Below, one piece after another: positions 21,358-62,954 of a DNA stretch of 64,000 nt; the stretch's first letter is position 1; each line of letters starts with the position of its first letter. The position numbers and the translations under genes are program-made. The notes under the pieces are model-generated. The model was not told the DNA's origin. It made no database searches and saw nothing but the letters and a program-made list of their open reading frames with translations. Source of the stretch: Desulfobacterales bacterium (GTDB lineage Bacteria > Desulfobacterota > Desulfobacteria > Desulfobacterales > Desulfosalsimonadaceae); NCBI GenBank assembly GCA_018335195.1, contig JAGXKN010000015.1, positions 1 to 64,000 on the forward strand. The letters run 5' to 3'.

Positions 21358-22896
21358 CTATACAGACTCGGCCTTGCGCGGCGGGTGGCTTTTGAGATAT
21401 TCTAGCCGGTTTAAGCCGTTGATATAAGCATACGCGCTGGCCGTGATAATATCCGGGTCCGCCCCGCGGCCCAGCGCGATCACGTCGCTTTCCTTCAGCC
21501 GAACCGAGACCTCGCCCTGGGCGTCGGTGCCGCCTGTCAGGGCGTTTACCGAAAAGCGCATCAACTGGGATTCGGTCCCCGTGAGATCCGAAATGGCATT
21601 GAACACCGCGTCAATCGGACCGTTGCCGCTTCCCGTGCAGAACGTTTCATTGCCGTTGATCACCATTTTTACCGTGGCCGTGGGCATCACCGTGGTGCCA
21701 GCCGTGACGTGCAGGTAGGTCAGCGAATAGATATCCGCGGTCCGCAGCACCCCTTCGTTGACAAGGGCTTCGAGGTCCTCGTCGAGCACGACCTTTTTCT
21801 TGTCCGCCAGCTCCTTGAATTTCTTGAAAACCAGCTTGAGTTCCTCTTCCGAGAGATCATAGCCGATATTCTGGAGGTGCTTGTGCAGCGCGTGCTTTCC
21901 GGAATGCTTGCCCATGACCATTCGGCTCGTTGTCAGGCCGATGGTTTCGGGTTTCATGATTTCATAGGTCATGGGGTTCTGGAGCACGCCGTGCTGGTGA
22001 ATTCCCGCTTCGTGAGCAAAGGCGTTGGCCCCCACGACCGCCTTGTTGGGCTGCACCATAAGCCCGGTAATCATGCTTACCAGCCGGCTGACACGGTAGA
22101 TGCGCGTGGTCTCGATCCCGGTGGTCACCGGCAGATAAGTGGGCCGGGTGTTTAACGTCATCACCAGCTCTTCCAGGGAGGTGTTGCCGGCCCGCTCACC
22201 GATTCCGTTGATGGTGACCTCCGCCTGCCGGGCCCCGTTTTCAATTGCCGCCAGTGTATTGGCGGTGGCCAGCCCCAGGTCGTTGTGACAGTGCACGCTC
22301 AGAATCCCCTTGTCCATATTCGGGGTGTTTTTCCGGACATAGGCCACCAGTTCCCCGAATTCATGGGGAATTGCATAGCCGACAGTGTCCGGGAGGTTCA
22401 CGGTCTTGGCCCCGGCGTCAATAACCGCTTCAAATACCCGGCAGAGGAAGTCCGGGTCGGTTCGGGAGCCGTCTTCAGCTGAAAATTCGATGTTCCCGGT
22501 AAGGCTGTGGGCATATTTTATCGCGTCCACGGCGCTTTTGACCACCTCTTCCCTGGACATGTTGAGCTTGTACTGCATGTGAATATCCGAGGTGGCCAGG
22601 AAAATGTGGATTCTTGGGTGGGCTGCATGGCTGATCGCCTTCCAGGCCCGGTCAATGTCGTGCACCGAGGCCCGGGCCAGGGCAACCACTTCCGCGTTGA
22701 CCACCTTCTGGGCCACTTCCGCGACCGCTTCAAAATCGCCTTCAGAGGCAGCGGGAAACCCGGCTTCCAGGGCGTCCACGCCCAGTTTTTCGAGCTGGGT
22801 GGCAATCCGTACCTTTTCGGCCTTGTTCATGCTCGCCCCGGGCGACTGCTCTCCGTCGCGCAGGGTGGTGTCAAATATATATACCTTCTCTTTCAT
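21358..22896 (-). CDS. leuA: 2-isopropylmalate synthase
   Basis: Condenses acetyl-CoA with 2-oxoisovalerate, the committed leucine step. The 512-residue protein has the DRE-TIM signature DTTLRDGEQSPGASM, the metal-binding HCHNDLGLA, and NGIGERAGNTSLEE. The C-terminal LeuA dimer domain (about 385-512), site of leucine feedback, is present with GNGPIDAVFNAI. It is the last gene of the ilvD-B-N-C-cimA-leuA unit. The closely related cimA lies just upstream; the Q-S-P-G-A-S version of the first motif separates LeuA from CimA here. Confidence 0.93.
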   Translation of the reverse strand: MKEKVYIFDTTLRDGEQSPGASMNKAEKVRIATQLEKLGVDALEAGFPAASEGDFEAVAEVAQKVVNAEVVALARASVHDIDRAWKAISHAAHPRIHIFLATSDIHMQYKLNMSREEVVKSAVDAIKYAHSLTGNIEFSAEDGSRTDPDFLCRVFEAVIDAGAKTVNLPDTVGYAIPHEFGELVAYVRKNTPNMDKGILSVHCHNDLGLATANTLAAIENGARQAEVTINGIGERAGNTSLEELVMTLNTRPTYLPVTTGIETTRIYRVSRLVSMITGLMVQPNKAVVGANAFAHEAGIHQHGVLQNPMTYEIMKPETIGLTTSRMVMGKHSGKHALHKHLQNIGYDLSEEELKLVFKKFKELADKKKVVLDEDLEALVNEGVLRTADIYSLTYLHVTAGTTVMPTATVKMVINGNETFCTGSGNGPIDAVFNAISDLTGTESQLMRFSVNALTGGTDAQGEVSVRLKESDVIALGRGADPDIITASAYAYINGLNRLEYLKSHPPRKAESV

Positions 22897-22987: not shown

Positions 22988-24583
22988 CTAGTCGCTGCCG
23001 TTTGTGACTTTGGCCAGTTTGTACTGGAAGCTGTCTGCCAGGGCCTGCCAGCTGGCCTCGATGATGTCCTCCGAGACCCCGATGGTGCTCCAGATGGCCT
23101 CTTCATCCCGGGAGTCAATGAGCACCCGGACCTTGGATCCGGTGCCTCCGCGGCCGTCAAGTACCCGGACCTTGAAGTCCACCAGGTGCACCGGATCGAG
23201 CACGTTGCGATAGACGTTGTTCAATGCCTTGCGCAGGGAATTGTCCAGCGCGCTGACCGGGCCGTGGCCCTCTGCTGCCGTGATTTCCTCGATTCCGTCC
23301 ACGTTGATCTTGATCAGGGCATTGGAGTAGCAGGGCCGGTCTTTTTCCTTTTCCACGGTCACCCGGAAGGACTCGAGATCAAAGCACGGTTTGAACTGAT
23401 CGGTGAGTTTTTCCATCAGGATGCGCAGAGAGCCGTCTGCCACGTCATACTGGTATCCCTCCTGTTCCAGGCGCTTGACCGTGTTGACGATCTCGGCATA
23501 GTCGTAGCCGTTCTCATCCACCGGAAATCCGAGTTCCCGGGCCTTGTACTTGATATTGCCCTTGCCGGCCATGTCAGAGATCAGCACCCGCCGTTTGTTG
23601 CCCACCAGTTCGGGGTCAATGTGCTCGTAGGAACGGGATTCCTTCATAATGGCATCCACGTGCAGGCCGCCTTTGTGGGTAAAGGCGCTTTTGCCCACAA
23701 ATGGCCGGCTGTTGACCGGCGTCATGTTTGCCGTCTCGCTGACAAACAGGGAAACTTTCTGAAGCTTGGCCAGGTTCTCATCAGAGACGCACGGATGCCC
23801 CATCTTGAGTTTGAGAATCGGGATAATCGATGTCAGGTCCGCATTGCCGCATCTTTCTCCGTACCCGTTGATGGTGCCCTGCACGACCGTGGCCCCGGCG
23901 CGCACGGCCGTGATGCTGTTTGCCACGGCCAGGTTGGAATCATTGTGGGTATGGATCCCGATGTGCATCGGCCTGTCGGCGGTCTTTTCAATCACTGCGC
24001 TGATATCCCGGATAATTTCTTCGATTTCGTGGGGCAGGGCGCCGCCGTTGGTATCGCAGAGCACCACGGCATCGGCGCCGCCCTTTACCGCGGCCTCAAT
24101 GGTTTGGGCCGCGTATTCGGGGTTTTCCTTGTAGCCGTCAAAGAAATGCTCGGCATCATAGTGGACCTCGATTCCGTTGTCCTTCAAGTAGGCCACGGAA
24201 TTGCGTATCATTTCCAGGTTTTCCTCCATGGGAACGCCAAGGATTTTGTTTACATGCAGATCCCAGCTTTTGCCGACAACCGTGCCCACCTGCGCCGCGC
24301 TTTCAAGGATGGCTTTGAGATGGACGTCGTCTTTGGGCGCCACGCCGTTCTTGTGCGTGGAGCCGAAGGCCGCCATCCGGGCATGCTCAAAAGGCTCTTT
24401 TGCAGCCATCTGGAAGAATTCCCAATCCTTGGCCGAAGCCCCGGGCCATCCGCCCTCGATATAGTGGATGCCCAGTTCATCGAGCTTTCTGGCAATCTTA
24501 AGTTTGTCCTGGGCCGTGAAATTGATCTTTTCACCCTGGGTGCCGTCTCTTAATGTGGTGTCGTAGAGCAGTATGGATTCCAT
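22988..24583 (-). CDS. cimA: (R)-citramalate synthase
   Basis: Condenses acetyl-CoA with pyruvate to citramalate, the threonine-independent route to isoleucine. The 531 residues start MESILLYDTTLRDGTQGEKI; the TQGE version of the signature and EGGWPGA are typical of this CimA group. HTHNDSNLA and NGYGERCGNAD supply metal and substrate sites, and a LeuA-type regulatory domain ends the protein. The ATG at 24583 has a GAAGG ribosome site; the frame runs upstream through a repeat island and is not coding there. It implies that isoleucine is made from pyruvate. Confidence 0.92.
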   Translation of the reverse strand: MESILLYDTTLRDGTQGEKINFTAQDKLKIARKLDELGIHYIEGGWPGASAKDWEFFQMAAKEPFEHARMAAFGSTHKNGVAPKDDVHLKAILESAAQVGTVVGKSWDLHVNKILGVPMEENLEMIRNSVAYLKDNGIEVHYDAEHFFDGYKENPEYAAQTIEAAVKGGADAVVLCDTNGGALPHEIEEIIRDISAVIEKTADRPMHIGIHTHNDSNLAVANSITAVRAGATVVQGTINGYGERCGNADLTSIIPILKLKMGHPCVSDENLAKLQKVSLFVSETANMTPVNSRPFVGKSAFTHKGGLHVDAIMKESRSYEHIDPELVGNKRRVLISDMAGKGNIKYKARELGFPVDENGYDYAEIVNTVKRLEQEGYQYDVADGSLRILMEKLTDQFKPCFDLESFRVTVEKEKDRPCYSNALIKINVDGIEEITAAEGHGPVSALDNSLRKALNNVYRNVLDPVHLVDFKVRVLDGRGGTGSKVRVLIDSRDEEAIWSTIGVSEDIIEASWQALADSFQYKLAKVTNGSD

Positions 24584-24673
24584 GGGAACCTTCTTTTTTC
24601 TGTTATTGAATGTTTCTGTCTGATTTCGCATTACAGACTTTGAATCAAGACATTGTATGTTTACAGAACATAA

Positions 24674-24813
24674 ACACGAAGCACGAAATCCGAAACAATA
24701 CTGAAGGATCAAAATTCAAACGGCACAAACAAATACGACGGTTCGTAGTCAGTTGTTTCGGAAATTTGGCATTCGAATTTGTTTCGGATTTTGAATTTCG
24801 ATATTCGTGCTTG
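24674..24813. repeat. CGAAATCCGAA-type inverted-repeat island between ilvC and cimA
   Basis: The left arm reads AAGCACGAAATCCGAAACAA and the right arm, read on the other strand, starts AAGCACGAATATCGAAATTC and contains AAATCCGAAACAAATTCGAA, so the 140 bp form an imperfect palindrome. It lies inside an operon, 9 bp from the end of ilvC, and would be transcribed. Confidence 0.6.
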
Positions 24814-24821
24814 CAAAGTTA

Positions 24822-25874
24822 TTATTTCCCCCGGCGTTCCGGCCGCAGAGAACGGACCGTTGCGCCGGTGGTCCACATTTCGGAGTTCTTGATAACATCG
24901 AGTTCCCGGGTCAGCTTTTCCCGGTAATCCGGTGTGCTGTTGGCCTCCAGTACCCGTTGAGTCTCTTTTCCGGAGGCAACGCTCTGGTACAGCTCTTCAA
25001 AGAGCGGTTCCACCCGGTCCCGGAACCTTGGTGCCCAGTCCAGGGCTCCGCGCTGGGCCGTGGTGCTGCAGTTGGAAAACATCCAGTCCATGCCGTTTTC
25101 GTCCACCAGCCGGATCAGGCTCTGTGTGAGCTCCTCAACGGTCTCGTTAAAGGCCTCGCTGGGGCTGTGGCCGTGCTTGCGCAGGGTGTTGTACTGGGCT
25201 TCCATGACCCCGGCCAGACATCCCATGAGCACGCCCCGCTCGCCGGTGAGGTCGCTGAAAACCTCCTTTTCAAAAGTCGTGGGAAACAGGTATCCCGACC
25301 CCACGGCAATGCCCAGGGCCAGGGCTCGCTCCCGGGCGCGGCCGGTGTAATCCTGGTGGATGGCAAAGCTGGAATTAATCCCGCGGCCCTCCAGGAAGTT
25401 TTTGCGCACGCTGGTGCCCGAGCCCTTGGGGGCGACCATGATCACGTCCACGAAATCCGGCGGGATCACCTCGGTCTGATCCTTGTAGACAATGGAAAAG
25501 CCGTGGGAGAAATAAAGGGCGTCGCCTTTGTTCAAGCACTCCTTGATCTGCGGCCATGTGGCGACCTGGCCGGCATCGGACATCAGTTCCATGATGATCG
25601 TGCCGCGTTTGGCCGCCTCTTCTAAGGGGAAAAGGGTTTCACCGGGCACAAAACCGTCGGAAATCGCTTTTTGCCAGTATTCATCGCCTTCGAGCTGGCC
25701 CACGATGACCGCAAGACCGTTTTCCTTGAGATTCAGCGCCTGGGCGGGCCCCTGCACCCCGTAGCCGAGCACCACGATGGTTTCGTCTTTCAAGACTTCC
25801 CGGGCCTTTTCCATGGTAAATTCATCTGATGTGATGACTTCTTCCTCTACACCGCCAAAATTCAGCTTTGCCAT
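24822..25874 (-). CDS. ilvC: Ketol-acid reductoisomerase
   Basis: Isomerises and reduces acetolactate or acetohydroxybutyrate in valine/isoleucine synthesis. At 350 residues it is a class I enzyme. The Rossmann loop is VVLGYGVQGPAQALNL (about 34-49). Acidic metal ligands are in KGDALYFSHG-following segments and DLTGERGVLMG with E-x3 partners downstream. The cofactor-specificity loop reads GQLEGDEYW (59-67), where NADPH-dependent class I enzymes usually have GLR-GS-S-W. Loss of the Arg and Ser and gain of acidic residues suggests NADH preference (inference from engineering studies of this loop). Confidence 0.92.
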   Translation of the reverse strand: MAKLNFGGVEEEVITSDEFTMEKAREVLKDETIVVLGYGVQGPAQALNLKENGLAVIVGQLEGDEYWQKAISDGFVPGETLFPLEEAAKRGTIIMELMSDAGQVATWPQIKECLNKGDALYFSHGFSIVYKDQTEVIPPDFVDVIMVAPKGSGTSVRKNFLEGRGINSSFAIHQDYTGRARERALALGIAVGSGYLFPTTFEKEVFSDLTGERGVLMGCLAGVMEAQYNTLRKHGHSPSEAFNETVEELTQSLIRLVDENGMDWMFSNCSTTAQRGALDWAPRFRDRVEPLFEELYQSVASGKETQRVLEANSTPDYREKLTRELDVIKNSEMWTTGATVRSLRPERRGK

Positions 25875-26143: not shown

Positions 26144-26638
26144 TTATTTGTTTTCCCGGGGCAGGGCCACGCCGCCGGTGCGTGCGATTTCCCGGATGCC
26201 AAAAGGTTTGAACAGGTTCAGAACCGCGTTGATTTTCTCCGTGTCCCCCTCGACCTTAACGGTAAAATGTTCAATCCCCACGTCCACCACCTGGCCGCGG
26301 AAAATGTCGGATATACGAAGGATTTCCGCGCGGTGCTCGGATCTGGCGTTTACCTTGATCAGGGCCATTTCCCGCTGCACGTATTTCGTGCCCGTCAGAT
26401 CGCTGACCTTGATGACGTTGATGAGCTTGTTGAGCTGTTTGTTGATCTGCTCGACGATCATCGGGCTGCCCTTGGTGACCATCGTAATGCGGGATATGGA
26501 CGGATCCACGGTTTCGGCCACGCTCAGGCTTTCAATGTTATATCCCCGTCCGGAAAACAGGCCGGTAATCCGGGAGAGCACGCCCGGTTCGTTGTCCACG
26601 AGAATGGAGAGCAAATGTCTTTTTTCGGTCATGGTCAA
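26144..26638 (-). CDS. ilvN: Acetolactate synthase, small (regulatory) subunit
   Basis: Regulatory partner of IlvB. The 164-residue size is that of the IlvH/IlvN long form: an N-terminal ACT domain (LLSILVDNEPGVLSRITGLFSGRGYNIESL, shown here only by its key segments VDNEPGVLSRI and RGYNIESLSV) that binds valine, and a C-terminal ALS_ss_C domain ending KPFGIREIARTG. It starts 41 bp after ilvB ends and precedes ilvC in the same operon. Valine feedback of acetohydroxyacid synthase is expected. Confidence 0.92.
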   Translation of the reverse strand: MTMTEKRHLLSILVDNEPGVLSRITGLFSGRGYNIESLSVAETVDPSISRITMVTKGSPMIVEQINKQLNKLINVIKVSDLTGTKYVQREMALIKVNARSEHRAEILRISDIFRGQVVDVGIEHFTVKVEGDTEKINAVLNLFKPFGIREIARTGGVALPRENK

Positions 26639-26679: not shown

Positions 26680-28368
26680 TTAAACCAGCAGCATCTTCTT
26701 GATGGGCGCCCCTGCGGGCACCATGGGATAGACGCTTTCCTCGGGCTCCACGATAAAGTCCATGATCACCGGGCCCTCGCACTTGATTCCCTCGGCGAGC
26801 ACCGCGGAAACCTCTTCGGGCTTGGAGGCGCGCAGGCCGGTGGCGCCGTAGGCCTCTGCAAGCTTGACAAAATCGGGTGTATGGACAAACTTGGTCGAGG
26901 CGTATCGGCGTTCATAAAACAGCTCCTGCCACTGGCGCACCATTCCCAGAAATCCGTTGTTTAAAATCACCACCTTGACCGGCAGTTTGTACTGTACCGC
27001 AGTGGCCAGTTCCTGAATGTTCATCTGGATGCTGCCGTCGCCCGCGATATCCACCACCAGAACGCCGGGTGCGCCCGCCTGGGCGCCGATGGCCGCCGGC
27101 AGGCCGAACCCCATGGCCCCCAGGCCGCCGGAGGTGATAAAGTGCCCCGGTTCCTTTAAGTGATAGTACTGGGCCGCCCACATCTGGTTCTGCCCCACCT
27201 CGGTTGCAATGATCGCATCGCCCTTTGTCAGATCGTAAAGGGTCTCGATCACGTATTGCGGCTTTATCACGTCCCCCTGCCTATAGGCCAGTGGGGTGGT
27301 CTCTTTCCATTTCTCGATCTGCTCCAGCCAGGGTCTGCGCTGATCGGCCACCCCGCCGAGATCTTCCTTGTCCAGAAGGCTGTTTAACTGGGAAAGCGAG
27401 ATTTTGCAGTCCCCAACCACCGGTACGTGTACCGGGATGTTTTTCTGGATGGAGGTCGGGTCGATGTCGATCTGCACGATTTTGGCATGCGGGGCGAACT
27501 CGTCAACTTTGCCGGTGACCCGGTCGTCAAAGCGCACGCCCGCGGAAATGAGCAGATCGCATTCGGACACGGCCATGTTGGCCCGAAAAGTACCGTGCAT
27601 GCCGAGCATGCCGAGCCACAGCGAATCCGTGCCCGGAAATCCGCCAAGGCCCATCAGCGAACTGGTCACCGGGATCTGCGCCTTGCGGGCCAGCTCGGTC
27701 AATTCACTGTGCGCATGAGACAGGCTTACCCCGCCGCCGGAGAAGATCACGGGTTTTTTCGCCTTTTGGATCAAGTCCACCACCTTGTTTAACTGCTTGA
27801 TGTTGGGCTTGTAGGTGGGACTGTAGGACTTGAGCCTGACCTCGCCGGGCACCTTGAACTGCGTGACCGCGTTGATCATATCCTTTGGCAGGTCCACCAG
27901 CACCGGTCCGGGCCGGCCCGAGCGGGCGATATGGAATGCCTCCTTGATGGTCCGGGCCAGGTACCGCACGTCCTTGACCAGATAATTGTGCTTGGTGCAG
28001 GGACGGGTAATGCCAACGATATCGACTTCCTGGAACGCATCGTTTCCGATCAGCGCGGTGGGCACCTGCCCGGTAAAAATCACCACAGGAATCGAGTCCA
28101 TGTAGGCCGAGGCAATCCCTGTGACCGTGTTGGTGGCGCCCGGACCCGAGGTTACCAGGCACACGCCCACCTTGCCGCTGGCACGCGCATAGCCGTCTGC
28201 GGCATGGATGGCCCCTTGTTCGTGGCGCACCAGGATATGATTGATATCCCCGGCTTCCATGAGTGCATCGTAAATGTCAATCACCGCTCCTCCCGGGTAG
28301 CCGAAGACCGTGTCCACGCCTTCCTCCTGAAGCATCTTCAACAGAATCTGCGCACCTTTGAGCTCCAT
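26680..28368 (-). CDS. ilvB: Acetolactate synthase, large (catalytic) subunit
   Basis: ThDP- and FAD-dependent condensation of pyruvate with pyruvate or 2-oxobutyrate. The 562-residue protein starts [28 protein letters not shown] and the activating Glu region (VRHEQGA) form the ThDP site, [15 protein letters not shown] is the ThDP-Mg motif, and [17 protein letters not shown] is the family loop. The ATG at 28368 has GGAAGGA; the frame is open upstream through a repeat. It is the second gene in the operon. Confidence 0.94.
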
Positions 28369-28447
28369 TGTCCTTCCTCGCTGTCTTTGATCGGTTTTCA
28401 AAAACCCCTGGCCGTGAACCCGCTCGGATGAATCTTGCGGGTTTAAA

Positions 28448-28504
28448 GATCCAAACAAGTACAACGGCTTCGGATCAGCCGTTTTGAAAATTCGAATTTC
28501 GAAT
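28448..28504. repeat. Short CGAATTTCGAA-type repeat with hairpin between ilvD and ilvB
   Basis: Contains AACGGCT (28463-) and AGCCGTT as a small stem, followed by GAAAATTCGAATTTCGAATT. It touches the ilvD stop. On the coding (minus) strand the stem is not followed by a T-run, so it is more likely part of the dispersed repeat family than a terminator. Confidence 0.4.
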
Positions 28505-30175
28505 TTACCCCTTTAGTACGGCCCCCTTGTCCGCCGAGGTCACCTGTTTGGCATATCGGGCCATGTAGCCCCTGGTGATTTTCGGCGCCGGTGCCTGCCA
28601 GCCGGCGAACCGCTTTTCGATTTCCGGGTTTCCCAGTTTCAATGTAATGGTTTTACCGGGGATGTCTATGGCGACAGGGTCGCCTTCTTCGACGATCGCC
28701 AGCGGACCTTTCTGCATGGCCTCCGGGGAGATGTGCCCGATGGCCGCGCCGCGGGTTCCGCCGGAAAACCGGCCGTCTGTGATCAGTGCCACGTTCCCGT
28801 CCAAACCCATGCCGGCAATGGCCGAGGTGGGGGCAAGCATCTCCCGCATGCCCGGCCCGCCCATGGGGCCCTCGTAGCGGATAACCACAACATCGCCCTT
28901 GTTGATCTTCCCGGCCATGATTGCCTCGGAGGCTTCTTCCTCTGAATTAAATACCCGGGCCGGCCCTTCATGCTGCATCATTTGGTCCGCCACAGCGGAC
29001 TGCTTGACCACGCATCCGTTGGGCGCCAGGTTGCCAAACAGTACGGCCAGCCCGCCGTATGAATGATAGGCCCGGTCCACCGGGCGGATCACTTCCGGAT
29101 CGATCACTCGGGCGGATTCCAGGTTGTCCCTGACGCGGTTTCCGGTCACGGTCAGGCAATCCGTATCGATCAGCCCGGCTTCTGCCAGGATTTTCATCAC
29201 CCCGGCAATGCCGCCGGCGTTGTTTAAGTCTTCGATGTGATGAGCCCCTCCCGGGCTCAGGGAGCACAGATGCGGAATCCGGTTGCTGATGGCATTGATC
29301 CGGTTCAGGTCCAGGGGCATGCCCCTTTCATGAGCCAGGGCCGCGATGTGGAGAACCGTGTTAGTGGAGCATCCCAGTGCCATGTCCACGCAGAGCGCGT
29401 TTTCAAAAGCCTGGTGGGTCAGAATCCGGCTCGGGATAATGCCCTCATTGTGCAGGGCCACCACCTGCATGCCCGCCTGCTTGGCCAGCCGCAGCCTGGC
29501 GGACATCACCGCGGGGATGGTCCCGTTTCCGGGCAAGCCCAGCCCGATGGCCTCGGTAAGGCAGTTCATGGAATTTGCCGTGAACATGCCCGAGCATGAA
29601 CCGCAGGTGGGGCAGGCCGCGTTTTCGATGTCGCAGAGTTCTTCCTCTGACATGACCCCGCGGCGAACCTTGCCCACGGATTCGAATACCGAGATCAGGT
29701 CCACCTTGTCCTTGGGATTTTCCGGATGGCGGCCGGCCAGCATGGGCCCGCCGCTGATGACCACCGTAGGCAGATCCAGGCGCGCGGCGGCCATGAGCAT
29801 GCCGGGTACGATCTTGTCGCAGTTGGGAATCATGACCATGGCGTCCAGGGCATGGGCCGTGGCCACGATTTCAATGGAATCGGCGATCAGCTCCCGGCTG
29901 CCCAGGGAGTATTTCATGCCTTCGTGGCCCATGGCAATGCCGTCGCAGACCCCGATGGTGCCGAACTCCACAGGCGTTCCGCCGGCCATGTAAATGCCGG
30001 CTTTAACCGCCTCGCTGATCTGGTTTAAGTTCACGTGGCCGGGAATAATGGTGTTAACCGAGTTTGCAATACCGATCAGCGGCCGGCGGATTTCGTCGTC
30101 GGTGTATCCGATACCCTTTAACAATGCCCGGTGGGGCGACCTTCCGATACCCTGCTTGGCCATGTCGCTTTTCAT
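28505..30175 (-). CDS. ilvD: Dihydroxy-acid dehydratase
   Basis: Dehydrates dihydroxyisovalerate and dihydroxymethylvalerate to the 2-oxo acids. The 556 residues carry the iron-sulfur ligands [11 protein letters not shown] and [19 protein letters not shown], and the C-terminal [19 protein letters not shown]. It is the first structural gene of the ilv-leu operon and is preceded by a leader peptide and terminator (30196-30372). The start ATG at 30175 has GGGGAGA upstream. An in-frame second Met (position 5) is an alternative. Confidence 0.94.
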
Positions 30176-30195
30176 GATTTTGTCTCCCCTGAAAC

Positions 30196-30234
30196 AAAAA
30201 AACCGCTATCAGCTTTCAGGGCTGATAACGGTTT
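30196..30234 (-). terminator. Attenuator terminator upstream of ilvD
   Basis: On the minus strand AAACCGTTATCAGC (30234-30221) pairs with GCTGATAGCGGTTT, loop CCTGAAA, followed at once by an uninterrupted T-run. This is a classic Rho-independent terminator placed 43 nt after the leader-peptide stop and about 20 nt before the ilvD start. I could not identify the antiterminator with confidence; a CTGAT within the leader codons could pair with ATCAG of the terminator's 5' arm. Confidence 0.8.
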
Positions 30235-30276
30235 GTGTAAAAATTTGAGAATCTTAAAATTTTATGCGCGCCATTA

Positions 30277-30372
30277 TCAACCCCGTTGCCCGCCCAGGAC
30301 GTCAAGTACGCCCAGTACGGGTACGATAATCAGAATAATGATGAGGCTGAAAATGACCGACCGGAAATTCAT
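30277..30372 (-). CDS. Branched-chain amino acid leader peptide (attenuation)
   Basis: A 31-codon frame, beginning MNFRSVIFSLIIILIIVPVL, with 16 of 31 residues Ile, Leu or Val (6 Ile, 5 Leu, 5 Val). It ends 43 nt before a Rho-independent terminator and about 100 nt before ilvD. This is the architecture of ilv/leu leader peptides in enterobacteria: ribosome stalling at scarce Ile/Leu/Val codons would prevent the terminator from forming. The ribosome site is weak (GGCGGA). The run is also hydrophobic enough for a membrane helix, so a small membrane protein is the alternative; position and codon content favour attenuation. Confidence 0.75.
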   Translation of the reverse strand: MNFRSVIFSLIIILIIVPVLGVLDVLGGQRG

Positions 30373-30443
30373 TTTAAGATCCGCCACAGGTTCCGGTTAA
30401 GTAAATGAAAAATTACAAAAAATTCTTCCGTTGAATCTTGATT

Positions 30444-30473
30444 CCAATATCAGCAAAATATTTCACTTGTCAA
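30444..30473 (-). promoter_or_regulatory. Candidate promoter for the ilv-leu leader
   Basis: On the minus strand TTGACA (30473-30468) is followed after 18 bp by TATTGG (30449-30444), preceded by TG as in extended -10 promoters. It lies about 70 bp upstream of the leader peptide and overlaps the stop codon of the upstream hydrolase. Confidence 0.5.
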
Positions 30474-31186
30474 GCATTTATTTTGGCAAGGTGCTTTTCA
30501 AGCCACTCCAGGGAGGTGTCCATGAATGCCTGCTGGTGCACGGGATTGCTGATAGGGTGATCCGAGCCGGGCAGGCAAAGCAGTTGTTTCGGGTCGGCGG
30601 CGGCATCTCGGATTTCCAGTGCGTTTTCATACGGCACGATCTGATCTTCGTCGCCGTGGCAGATTAAAATATGATGTACCAACGGCAGTCTTTCAGAGAC
30701 GTCAAATTCCATCCGGGCCGGTTCAATGCCCTCGAAGGCAGGGTTGATTTCATGGGAAAGCGGCACCCGGATGGCTGAAAACCGGATCGGGGCGGCAAGG
30801 GTGACAAATGCGCGGATATCGTAGATCCCGGCCACCGACAGCACCGCGGCGCCGCCCATGCTGCTGCCGAAAAGGCCCAGCTCGCCGCTGAGATCCGGAC
30901 GTTTGTGCAACATTTCAATGGCTGCGACCAGGTCGTTTCTGCGGCCGTCAAATGTCGTGACCCGGGCGAATTCTCCCTGGCTTTGTCCGCATCCGCGGTG
31001 GTCAAAGCGGAAATAGGCCAGACCCATGCGGTTGCATCGTTTAGCCAGGGCCTTTTGCTTGGGAGAATCCCCGTTGGACAGCATTCCGTGCACACCGATG
31101 ACAACGGGCGGGTTCTGTGCCCCGGGCATATGCAGACAGCCGTGCAGACGCAGGCCGTCGGCCTGAAAAAATAACGTTTCTTGCAT
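30470..31186 (-). CDS. Alpha/beta hydrolase
   Basis: A 238-residue serine hydrolase. VIGVHGMLSNG contains the oxyanion-hole region, GLFGSSMGGAA is the nucleophile elbow (G-x-S-x-G), HGDEDQIVP carries the acid and GSDHPIS the histidine. It resembles the BAAT/acyl-glycerol lyase-like group of cytosolic hydrolases. There is no signal peptide. The substrate is unknown. It is a monocistron; downstream lies the ilv leader promoter and upstream a repeat element. Confidence 0.8.
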   Translation of the reverse strand: MQETLFFQADGLRLHGCLHMPGAQNPPVVIGVHGMLSNGDSPKQKALAKRCNRMGLAYFRFDHRGCGQSQGEFARVTTFDGRRNDLVAAIEMLHKRPDLSGELGLFGSSMGGAAVLSVAGIYDIRAFVTLAAPIRFSAIRVPLSHEINPAFEGIEPARMEFDVSERLPLVHHILICHGDEDQIVPYENALEIRDAAADPKQLLCLPGSDHPISNPVHQQAFMDTSLEWLEKHLAKINA

Positions 31187-62878: not shown

Positions 62879-62954
62879 GGGGATGTAGCTCAGCCGGGAG
62901 AGCGCGGCGTTCGCAACGCCGAGGTCAGGGGTTCGATCCCCCTCATCTCCACCA
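62879..62954 (+). tRNA. tRNA-Ala, anticodon CGC
   Basis: A complete cloverleaf of 76 nt. The acceptor GGGGATG pairs with CATCTCC, including the G3-U70 pair that identifies alanine tRNA. The D arm is AGCTCAGCCGGGAGAGC, the anticodon stem CGGCG/CGCCG with loop TTCGCAA (anticodon CGC), the T arm GGGG-TTCGATC-CCCC. The CCA end is encoded at 62952-62954. Confidence 0.96.

Follow-up and report, generated by a model that had tools for sequence, protein, structure and literature searches.

A conserved putative leader-peptide attenuator upstream of branched-chain amino-acid genes in the Desulfobacterales

Enterobacteria control several branched-chain amino-acid operons by transcription attenuation, namely ilvGMEDA (leader ilvL), ilvBN (ivbL) and leuABCD (leuL; Rfam family Leu_leader, RF00512). 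The leader and the attenuation principle are stated in a passage of PMC3766115, according to which the amino-acid attenuator motifs in Rfam at the time covered His, Leu, Thr and Trp, with Ile and Val not represented, and may have arisen in gamma-proteobacteria. Passages of PMC10272879 identify the upstream-frame attenuator of ilvBNC in Corynebacterium as ilvB-II and give hints of the same for the ilvB-OMG and Leptospira ilvB motifs. In Staphylococcus aureus, attenuation ahead of ilvD is backed by suppressor mutations that fall in the leader and in the terminator, as excerpts of PMC5794164 report. Among the papers listed in literature searches, none deals, by its title or the opening of its abstract, with a leader-peptide attenuator of branched-chain genes in Desulfobacterota, and the surveys Vitreschak 2004 and Lopatovskaya 2010 may contain it; the passages on Desulfo, delta or ilv in PMC2965389, PMC2864571, PMC4833913 and PMC11109978 are without this element.

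Here, we analysed 64,000 nucleotides of a Desulfobacterales bacterium (the window), in which the DNA before ilvD carries what we read from its sequence, with a probability of about 0.93, as a ribosome-mediated transcription attenuator of the branched-chain operon. It has in common with the enterobacterial ilv and leu attenuators an end-product-rich leader peptide, four segments capable of alternative pairing and an intrinsic terminator before the structural genes, and it appears to work like them, a likeness by which we imply neither descent from a known leader family nor a first discovery. Unlike them, it matches no Rfam model, ilvD stands first and cimA lies inside the operon, segment 2 in the window carries the leader stop, and the arms are nearly constant over an order. 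With the ilvB-II leader it shares an upstream frame rich in Ile, Leu and Val (I/L/V), a terminator and antiterminator before a branched-chain operon, and occurrence once per genome, whereas ilvB-II frames usually have 15–17 codons (excerpts of PMC10272879; the sequence relation was compared through Rfam only). The S. aureus leader likewise places an Ile/Leu-rich peptide and a terminator before ilvD of an ilv-leu operon, but the antiterminator proposed there pairs with the poly-U tail and not with the 5′ arm of the terminator (excerpts of PMC5794164). T-box leaders (RF00230) provide a tRNA-dependent switch of branched-chain operons such as B. subtilis ilv-leu (same excerpts); unlike these, the leader region described here has an I/L/V-rich frame, and searching it with E values as high as 10 brings up no T-box.

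All parts of the element lie on the minus strand. A sigma-70-type promoter match (TTGACA, 16 nt, GATATT; 30446–30473; 10 of 12 positions) has its −35 hexamer (30468–30473) overlapping the stop codon of the upstream neighbour, an alpha/beta-hydrolase-like gene (30470–31186) whose NCBIfam matches all fall below cut-off. A Shine–Dalgarno-like GGCGGA (30380–30385) lies 7 nt 5′ of the ATG of the leader frame (30277–30372), which runs from 30372 to a TGA at 30279–30277, comprises 31 codons plus the stop and translates as MNFRSVIFSLIIILIIVPVLGVLDVLGGQRG, with 16 Ile, Leu or Val residues, a richness equalled in none of 200 dinucleotide shuffles of the region. The TGA falls within segment 2 and is directly followed by TAA. 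Further downstream, an intrinsic terminator (30234–30200) consists of a 14-bp stem, a 7-nt loop and a T-run (30196–30202) whose first three T also take part in stem pairs; its minimum free energy is −19.7 kcal/mol, and none of 200 shuffles is as stable. The start of ilvD, at 30175, is 20 nt past the T-run, and the leader region as a whole (30176–30440) folds 4.6 standard deviations below shuffles. Searched against Rfam 15 at gathering score, the whole window gives a tRNA at 62879 as its sole match, and when E values up to 10 are admitted for the leader region, the five matches that appear are all below threshold and belong to unrelated families, T-box and amino-acid leaders being absent. The original prediction had named the 31-codon frame with its 16 Ile/Leu/Val codons, the Rho-independent terminator before ilvD and the absence of T-box signals, all of which these results bear out.

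Six genes follow on the same strand: ilvD, dihydroxy-acid dehydratase (28505–30175; TIGR00110), which heads the proposed operon; ilvB, acetolactate synthase large subunit (26680–28464 as the listed frame, the true start probably being internal; TIGR00118); ilvN, acetolactate synthase small subunit (26144–26638; TIGR00119); ilvC, ketol-acid reductoisomerase (24822–25874; TIGR00465); cimA, citramalate synthase (22988–24712, true start again probably internal; TIGR00977, 685.9 bits against a cut-off of 450); and leuA, 2-isopropylmalate synthase (21358–22896; TIGR00973). Each scores above cut-off for at least one NCBIfam model bearing its name. That six genes including cimA are controlled together, as had been proposed, holds for their identity and common strand, and ilvDBNC-cimA-leuA would form a putative single transcript. 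Between 21200 and 30200, terminator-like sites number 13 on both strands against 12.5 by chance, and two lie on the operon strand. One of these two, between ilvD and ilvB (28483–28463), is a hairpin of only 7 bp, weak and ending in a short T-rich stretch, which could reduce read-through within the operon or be due to chance. Homologues of leuC are on other contigs, none above the model cut-off.

Within the family, ilvD is present in 34 of 36 genomes, and our first set consists of the 30 family loci listed, the window's own included, all of which were examined. Every one carries segment 2, the invariant ACCGTTATCAGC and the T-run, and in 27 an I/L/V-rich frame ends at the segment 2 stop or one codon before it. 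In the remaining three, the rich frame crosses segment 2 in another phase (L009, L011) or ends two codons earlier (L022), and these frames were recovered in the named copies L065, L123 and L061. Shine–Dalgarno-like purines precede 22 of the 26 family leaders examined. A TTGACA precedes the leader in 27 of the 30 loci; L012 and L013 are without an exact copy and L010 is cut by the contig end. The recurrence of this hexamer bears on whether the hairpin is an ordinary terminator of the hydrolase-like gene, accompanied by a frame that arose by chance. That gene does share the strand of the leader, with its end at 30470, but besides the conserved TTGACA, the element also stands before ilvB, cimA and leuA in other genomes and its segments 2 and 3 covary, and we give this explanation a negligible probability.

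A second set was obtained from the genome_contigs collection with a pattern drawn from segments 2 and 3 alone, holding no frame information. Among named genomes it yielded at least 117 loci, and in at least 54 of these a gene of the six-gene operon follows closely. After dropping L085 (ilvB-like at 27% identity, no T-run, taken as chance), at least 53 of at least 117 loci precede a branched-chain gene, and with L063, L089 and L139, in which the leader lies at the edge of the fetched DNA, the total is at least 56. Of the 56 loci listed, 26 repeat the first set; no T-run was found in L138, and no frame in L115, where the upstream DNA is cut. None of the other 61 loci among the matches listed has both a T-run and a frame with more than one third I/L/V. 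By record title, 47 of the 56 are of Desulfobacterales type (including Desulfobacterales, Desulfobacteraceae, Desulfococcaceae, Desulfobotulus alkaliphilus and Desulfosudis oleivorans, the genera being ones that we take to belong to this type), seven read 'Deltaproteobacteria' and two 'Proteobacteria'; the guess, made from the letters of the window, that it comes from a member of the Desulfobacterota is in line with the Desulfobacterota-type, 'Deltaproteobacteria' and 'Proteobacteria' titles of the matching records.

How could the leader switch between terminating and reading through? From its sequence, the window appears to hold all four segments in the classical attenuator layout. Segment 1 (30345–30357) covers leader codons 6–10 and can pair with segment 2 as a protector (1:2), weakly in folding. 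Segment 2 (30270–30285) holds the leader stop; its partner is segment 3, forming the antiterminator, or segment 1 (30357–30345). Segment 3 (30217–30234) provides both the terminator 5′ arm (30234–30221) and the antiterminator 3′ strand (30231–30217), and segment 4 (30200–30213) is the terminator 3′ arm. In the predicted fold from segment 2 onward, the antiterminator joins 30285–30271 with 30231–30217 in 15 pairs, three of them G-U, at −27.2 kcal/mol. An antiterminator, earlier described as not obvious, is thus present; it overlaps the end of the leader, and its two strands, segments 2 and 3, covary.

Folding was calculated at equilibrium with the full terminator and also before segment 4 exists. 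At equilibrium in the window, the terminator has a probability of 0.998 with the leader free, the antiterminator 0.989 with the leader masked as far as 30 nt ahead of the stop, and the terminator again 0.998 with the stop codon and 12 nt beyond masked. Among 97 relatives, the terminator is favoured in 93 with the leader free and in 81 despite a masked leader, so in these 81 the switch must be kinetic, with the antiterminator forming first. That the antiterminator wins by forming first is the usual assumption for attenuators. In the fold that still lacks segment 4, a masked leader gives the antiterminator in 94 of 97 and an unmasked one in 64 of 97, and only 30 of 97 change over on masking; the window, at 0.99 in both states, is not one of them. 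Segment 2 pairs upstream with a probability above 0.5 in 26 of 97 relatives and with 0.01 in the window. The 1:2 protector is therefore the least certain part of the scheme, weakly supported by energy, and given that the antiterminator forms unmasked, an untranslated leader might read through. Equilibrium folding as proof of the switch was dropped, as it fits the window but not 81 of the 97 relatives.

Antiterminator formation on an unmasked leader before segment 4 exists, seen in 64 of 97 loci including the window, is also what a factor-dependent switch would give, and a riboswitch, T-box or protein-dependent antiterminator with an incidental small frame would equally be a conserved structured leader with a terminator and an antiterminator. 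Against these readings, Rfam returns no riboswitch or T-box family at E up to 10, sets A1 and A2 contain no conserved block outside the paired arms and the coding frame, and most loci have I/L/V-rich frames; we consider them very unlikely. A riboswitch or T-box as such was rejected on the Rfam searches, both those run at gathering score and those admitting E values up to 10.

Since folding fails as proof, both at equilibrium (81 of 97) and before segment 4 exists (changeover in 30 of 97), we rely on covariation. In A2, a set of 58 distinct leaders (L138 was left out for want of a T-run, and L007 was merged with L004, with which it shares its core), 96.7% of antiterminator cells are paired, against 16.6–64.2% when the strands are slid by 1–3 columns, and 97.8% of terminator-stem cells are paired. 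Columns 149/212, where the segment 3 base lies outside the terminator stem, are GC in 40 leaders and UA in 15. In the protector, 88.9% of cells pair, whereas slid versions reach at most 58.5%, and one pair is C-G in 35 and A-U in 14. The segment 1 base matching columns 149/212 changes as well, so that segments 1, 2 and 3 read C/G/C in 34 of 58, A/T/A in 12 and a mixture in 12. For all three helices, the number of cells in which both partners have changed exceeds all 500 shuffles, and so does the covariation score. The number of pairs changed on both sides is matched by 284 of 500 shuffles for the antiterminator and by 50 of 500 for the protector, and protector pair types by 275 of 500, so that two of the five shuffle measures are not beaten for the protector.

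The search pattern behind some of the A2 leaders itself dictates stretches of segments 2 and 3, and pairing was therefore recounted on leaders found with a covariance model, R1, which spans segment 2 to the T-run and was built from A3 (leaving out L040, whose segment is cut short). R1 favours similar copies, which makes the 97 leaders that it found a biased sample; L275, L276 and L277, weak model hits with neither an I/L/V-rich frame nor a branched-chain gene, are excluded from the 97 and kept where 100 loci are counted. In the 97, the antiterminator is 94.0% paired against 19.1–53.5% slid, and pair 6/89 is G-C in 68 leaders and C-G in 13. For the terminator the paired share is 96.2%, and column 78/115 reads T-A in 49, A-T in 39 and G-C in 5. 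The 78 leaders that do not repeat A2 (19 do) give 93.2% against 20.3–52.8% for the antiterminator and 96.0% for the terminator. At one position, segments 2, 3 and 4 read G/C/G in 57 of 97 and C/G/C in 11 of 97 (44 and 11 of the 78), counts that are not numbers of events, as related sequences share changes. The 11 C/G/C loci come from five families: L249 and L255 from two other families of the order, and nine loci from three families elsewhere in the phylum. Here the segment 3 base has changed together with both of its alternative partners, and we conclude that both helices, the terminator and the antiterminator, are under selection. The retention of the terminator stem (97.8% in A2, 96.2% in the 97 loci) also speaks against a use of the leader frame in which control runs through translation of ilvD, Rho or re-initiation and not through the intrinsic terminator; the ilvD start lies just 20 nt after the T-run, where local effects are possible, and we nevertheless grant this arrangement next to no chance.

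With an E limit of 0.01, R1 matches 134 of the 144 genomes sampled in the order, the best hit being weaker than 5e-5 in four of them (G064, G066, G076 and G111), and the element occurs in 89 of the 96 genera sampled. Together with the 30 listed family loci, this establishes the conservation of leader codons and terminator upstream of ilvD that the original prediction proposed to look for. An ilvD gene or homologue is found in 137 of the 144 genomes, and R1 matches 133 of the 137 with ilvD and one of the seven without. The four genomes with ilvD and no R1 match are G122, G131, G160 and G173. The G122 contig starts inside what by eye resembles a terminator, the G173 contig ends before the leader, and G160 has a diverged leader of 30 codons, 11 of them I/L/V, with segment 2 and terminator seen by eye. 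This last locus, missed by the model (L307; G160:C12:10900-11600, leader from 356), encodes MRQSFPKSVVLLLSLLLISVGVYPCRRGTG, and its altered segment 2 and terminator arms still pair by eye. Four genomes that are 93–99% complete (G082, G118 and G142 of family f48, and G088) have neither an ilvD match nor the attenuator; branched-chain synthesis may have been lost in them. Over the phylum, R1 matches 31 of 297 genomes, 11 of these in the order, and the weakest hits are doubtful. The window's own genome has one clear R1 place; the palindrome of that place on the other strand follows at E 0.005, and four hits at E 3–7.

Which genes does the element precede? We scanned 100 loci, comprising 22 of the best R1 hits in the order and 78 of 80 fetched regions (L296 and L297 were left out), and 94 of them precede ilvD (40), ilvB (35) or cimA/leuA homologues (19), the proportions among these genes carrying no meaning since the fetched regions were picked for lying away from ilvD, for coming from the phylum search or as additional ilvD cases. 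The downstream genes of L252 (ilvB-like at 43%), L257 and L258 are distant homologues. Of the remaining six loci, L236 is followed by ilvC at 1.1 kb, L249 reaches the end of its contig, L273 is described below, and L275–L277 are taken as false hits. Two leaders before separate branched-chain genes occur in G053 (ilvB and cimA) and in G078 and G102 (ilvD and ilvB). In L257 (G139) and L258 (G113), a Leu-rich leader lies before a distant 2-isopropylmalate-synthase-like gene, at 25–26% to the window's cimA and below NCBIfam cut-offs; G139 also carries the element directly before ilvD. In L273 (G454:C70:4500-6500, leader near 421–500), an I/L/V-rich frame, segment 2 and a terminator stand before an acyl-CoA dehydrogenase gene, whose best NCBIfam match, acryloyl-CoA reductase, is below cut-off and which is not a standard branched-chain synthesis gene; this leader may hint that a branched-chain precursor can be made in a different way.

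The leader frame and the RNA behave differently across these loci. Measured from the stop in segment 2, the end of the best I/L/V frame has an offset of 0 in 46 loci, +3 in 13, +11 in 31 and elsewhere in 10 (n = 100, false hits included), so that two of the three reading frames through segment 2 are common and the third is rare (+16 in L200, +4 in L274, and L009). The I/L/V content exceeds all but at most one of 200 shuffles in 72 of the 100 loci and all but at most ten in 90. Mean leader composition over 97 loci is 20.8% Ile, 17.5% Leu and 11.8% Val, and the peptide sequence differs widely among loci while I/L/V richness and the RNA are kept, as one would expect where what counts is codon identity and RNA pairing, not the peptide itself. 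Codon-position differences over 63 pairs of similar leaders (348/289/403) show a mild third-position excess, too weak for use as a test of selection at the protein level. Three leuA-linked leaders have 28.2% Leu and 8.5% Ile, and L266 (leuA by NCBIfam) and L268 (leuA/cimA family by tblastn only) have a mixed composition; that leader composition tracks the downstream gene is only suggestive. A frame for a hydrophobic peptide of 31 residues, with a promoter match and a Shine–Dalgarno-like site, might matter for its product, a small membrane peptide such as a type I toxin or a regulator, with the terminator merely ending its mRNA. We regard this as highly improbable, as the sequence varies widely and its end is read in different frames, only I/L/V content and RNA staying constant, and as both the placement before branched-chain genes and the covariation of the antiterminator would go unexplained.

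What would a ribosome-mediated attenuator do in this organism? RNA polymerase would start at about 30440, judging from the promoter match, with a ribosome trailing through the 31-codon leader. At low levels of charged Ile-, Leu- or Val-tRNA, the ribosome would stall at the I/L/V codons (codons 6–17 and beyond) and cover segment 1, leaving segment 2 free to pair with segment 3 before segment 4 is made, so that the terminator would be blocked and ilvDBNC-cimA-leuA transcribed. With plentiful amino acids, the ribosome would reach the stop within segment 2 and cover that segment, upon which segments 3 and 4 would pair and transcription would end at the T-run, 20 nt before ilvD. In this scheme we infer the transcription start, leader translation, ribosome stalling, its coupling to the polymerase and which amino acid is most important. 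The parts themselves, their conservation, their linkage to branched-chain genes and the selection on both helices are read in the sequences directly: an end-product-rich frame lies between promoter match and first gene, followed by a terminator and an antiterminator that share a strand under selection, and the amino acids for which the leader is rich in codons are those synthesised by the products of the downstream genes. The ilv/leu attenuation design that had been suggested for this locus is supported by these conserved parts, the covarying antiterminator and the gene linkage.

The arm sequences are nearly letter-for-letter constant in 60 of the 62 families sampled in the order (our own count from the R1 hits, a model that favours similar copies), with TGATAATGG-like sequence in segment 2 and CCGTTATCAG in segment 3, which may exceed what pairing needs; a simpler reason is that each strand has two partners. 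A second role in trans is reported for the trp leader peptide of Sinorhizobium in the abstract of PMC7298713. A comparable second job in trans for the terminated leader RNA or peptide, which would make the element a dual-function RNA, we hold to be unlikely.

In conclusion, an RNA element that no Rfam 15 model matches appears to serve the control of branched-chain amino-acid genes throughout the Desulfobacterales. Three of its strands change together, which makes selection on both alternative structures readable from sequence alone. The element is suited to a covariance-model entry, and its small leader frames are easily overlooked in annotation. Its presence predicts amino-acid control of the ilv and leu operons in the genera that carry it.
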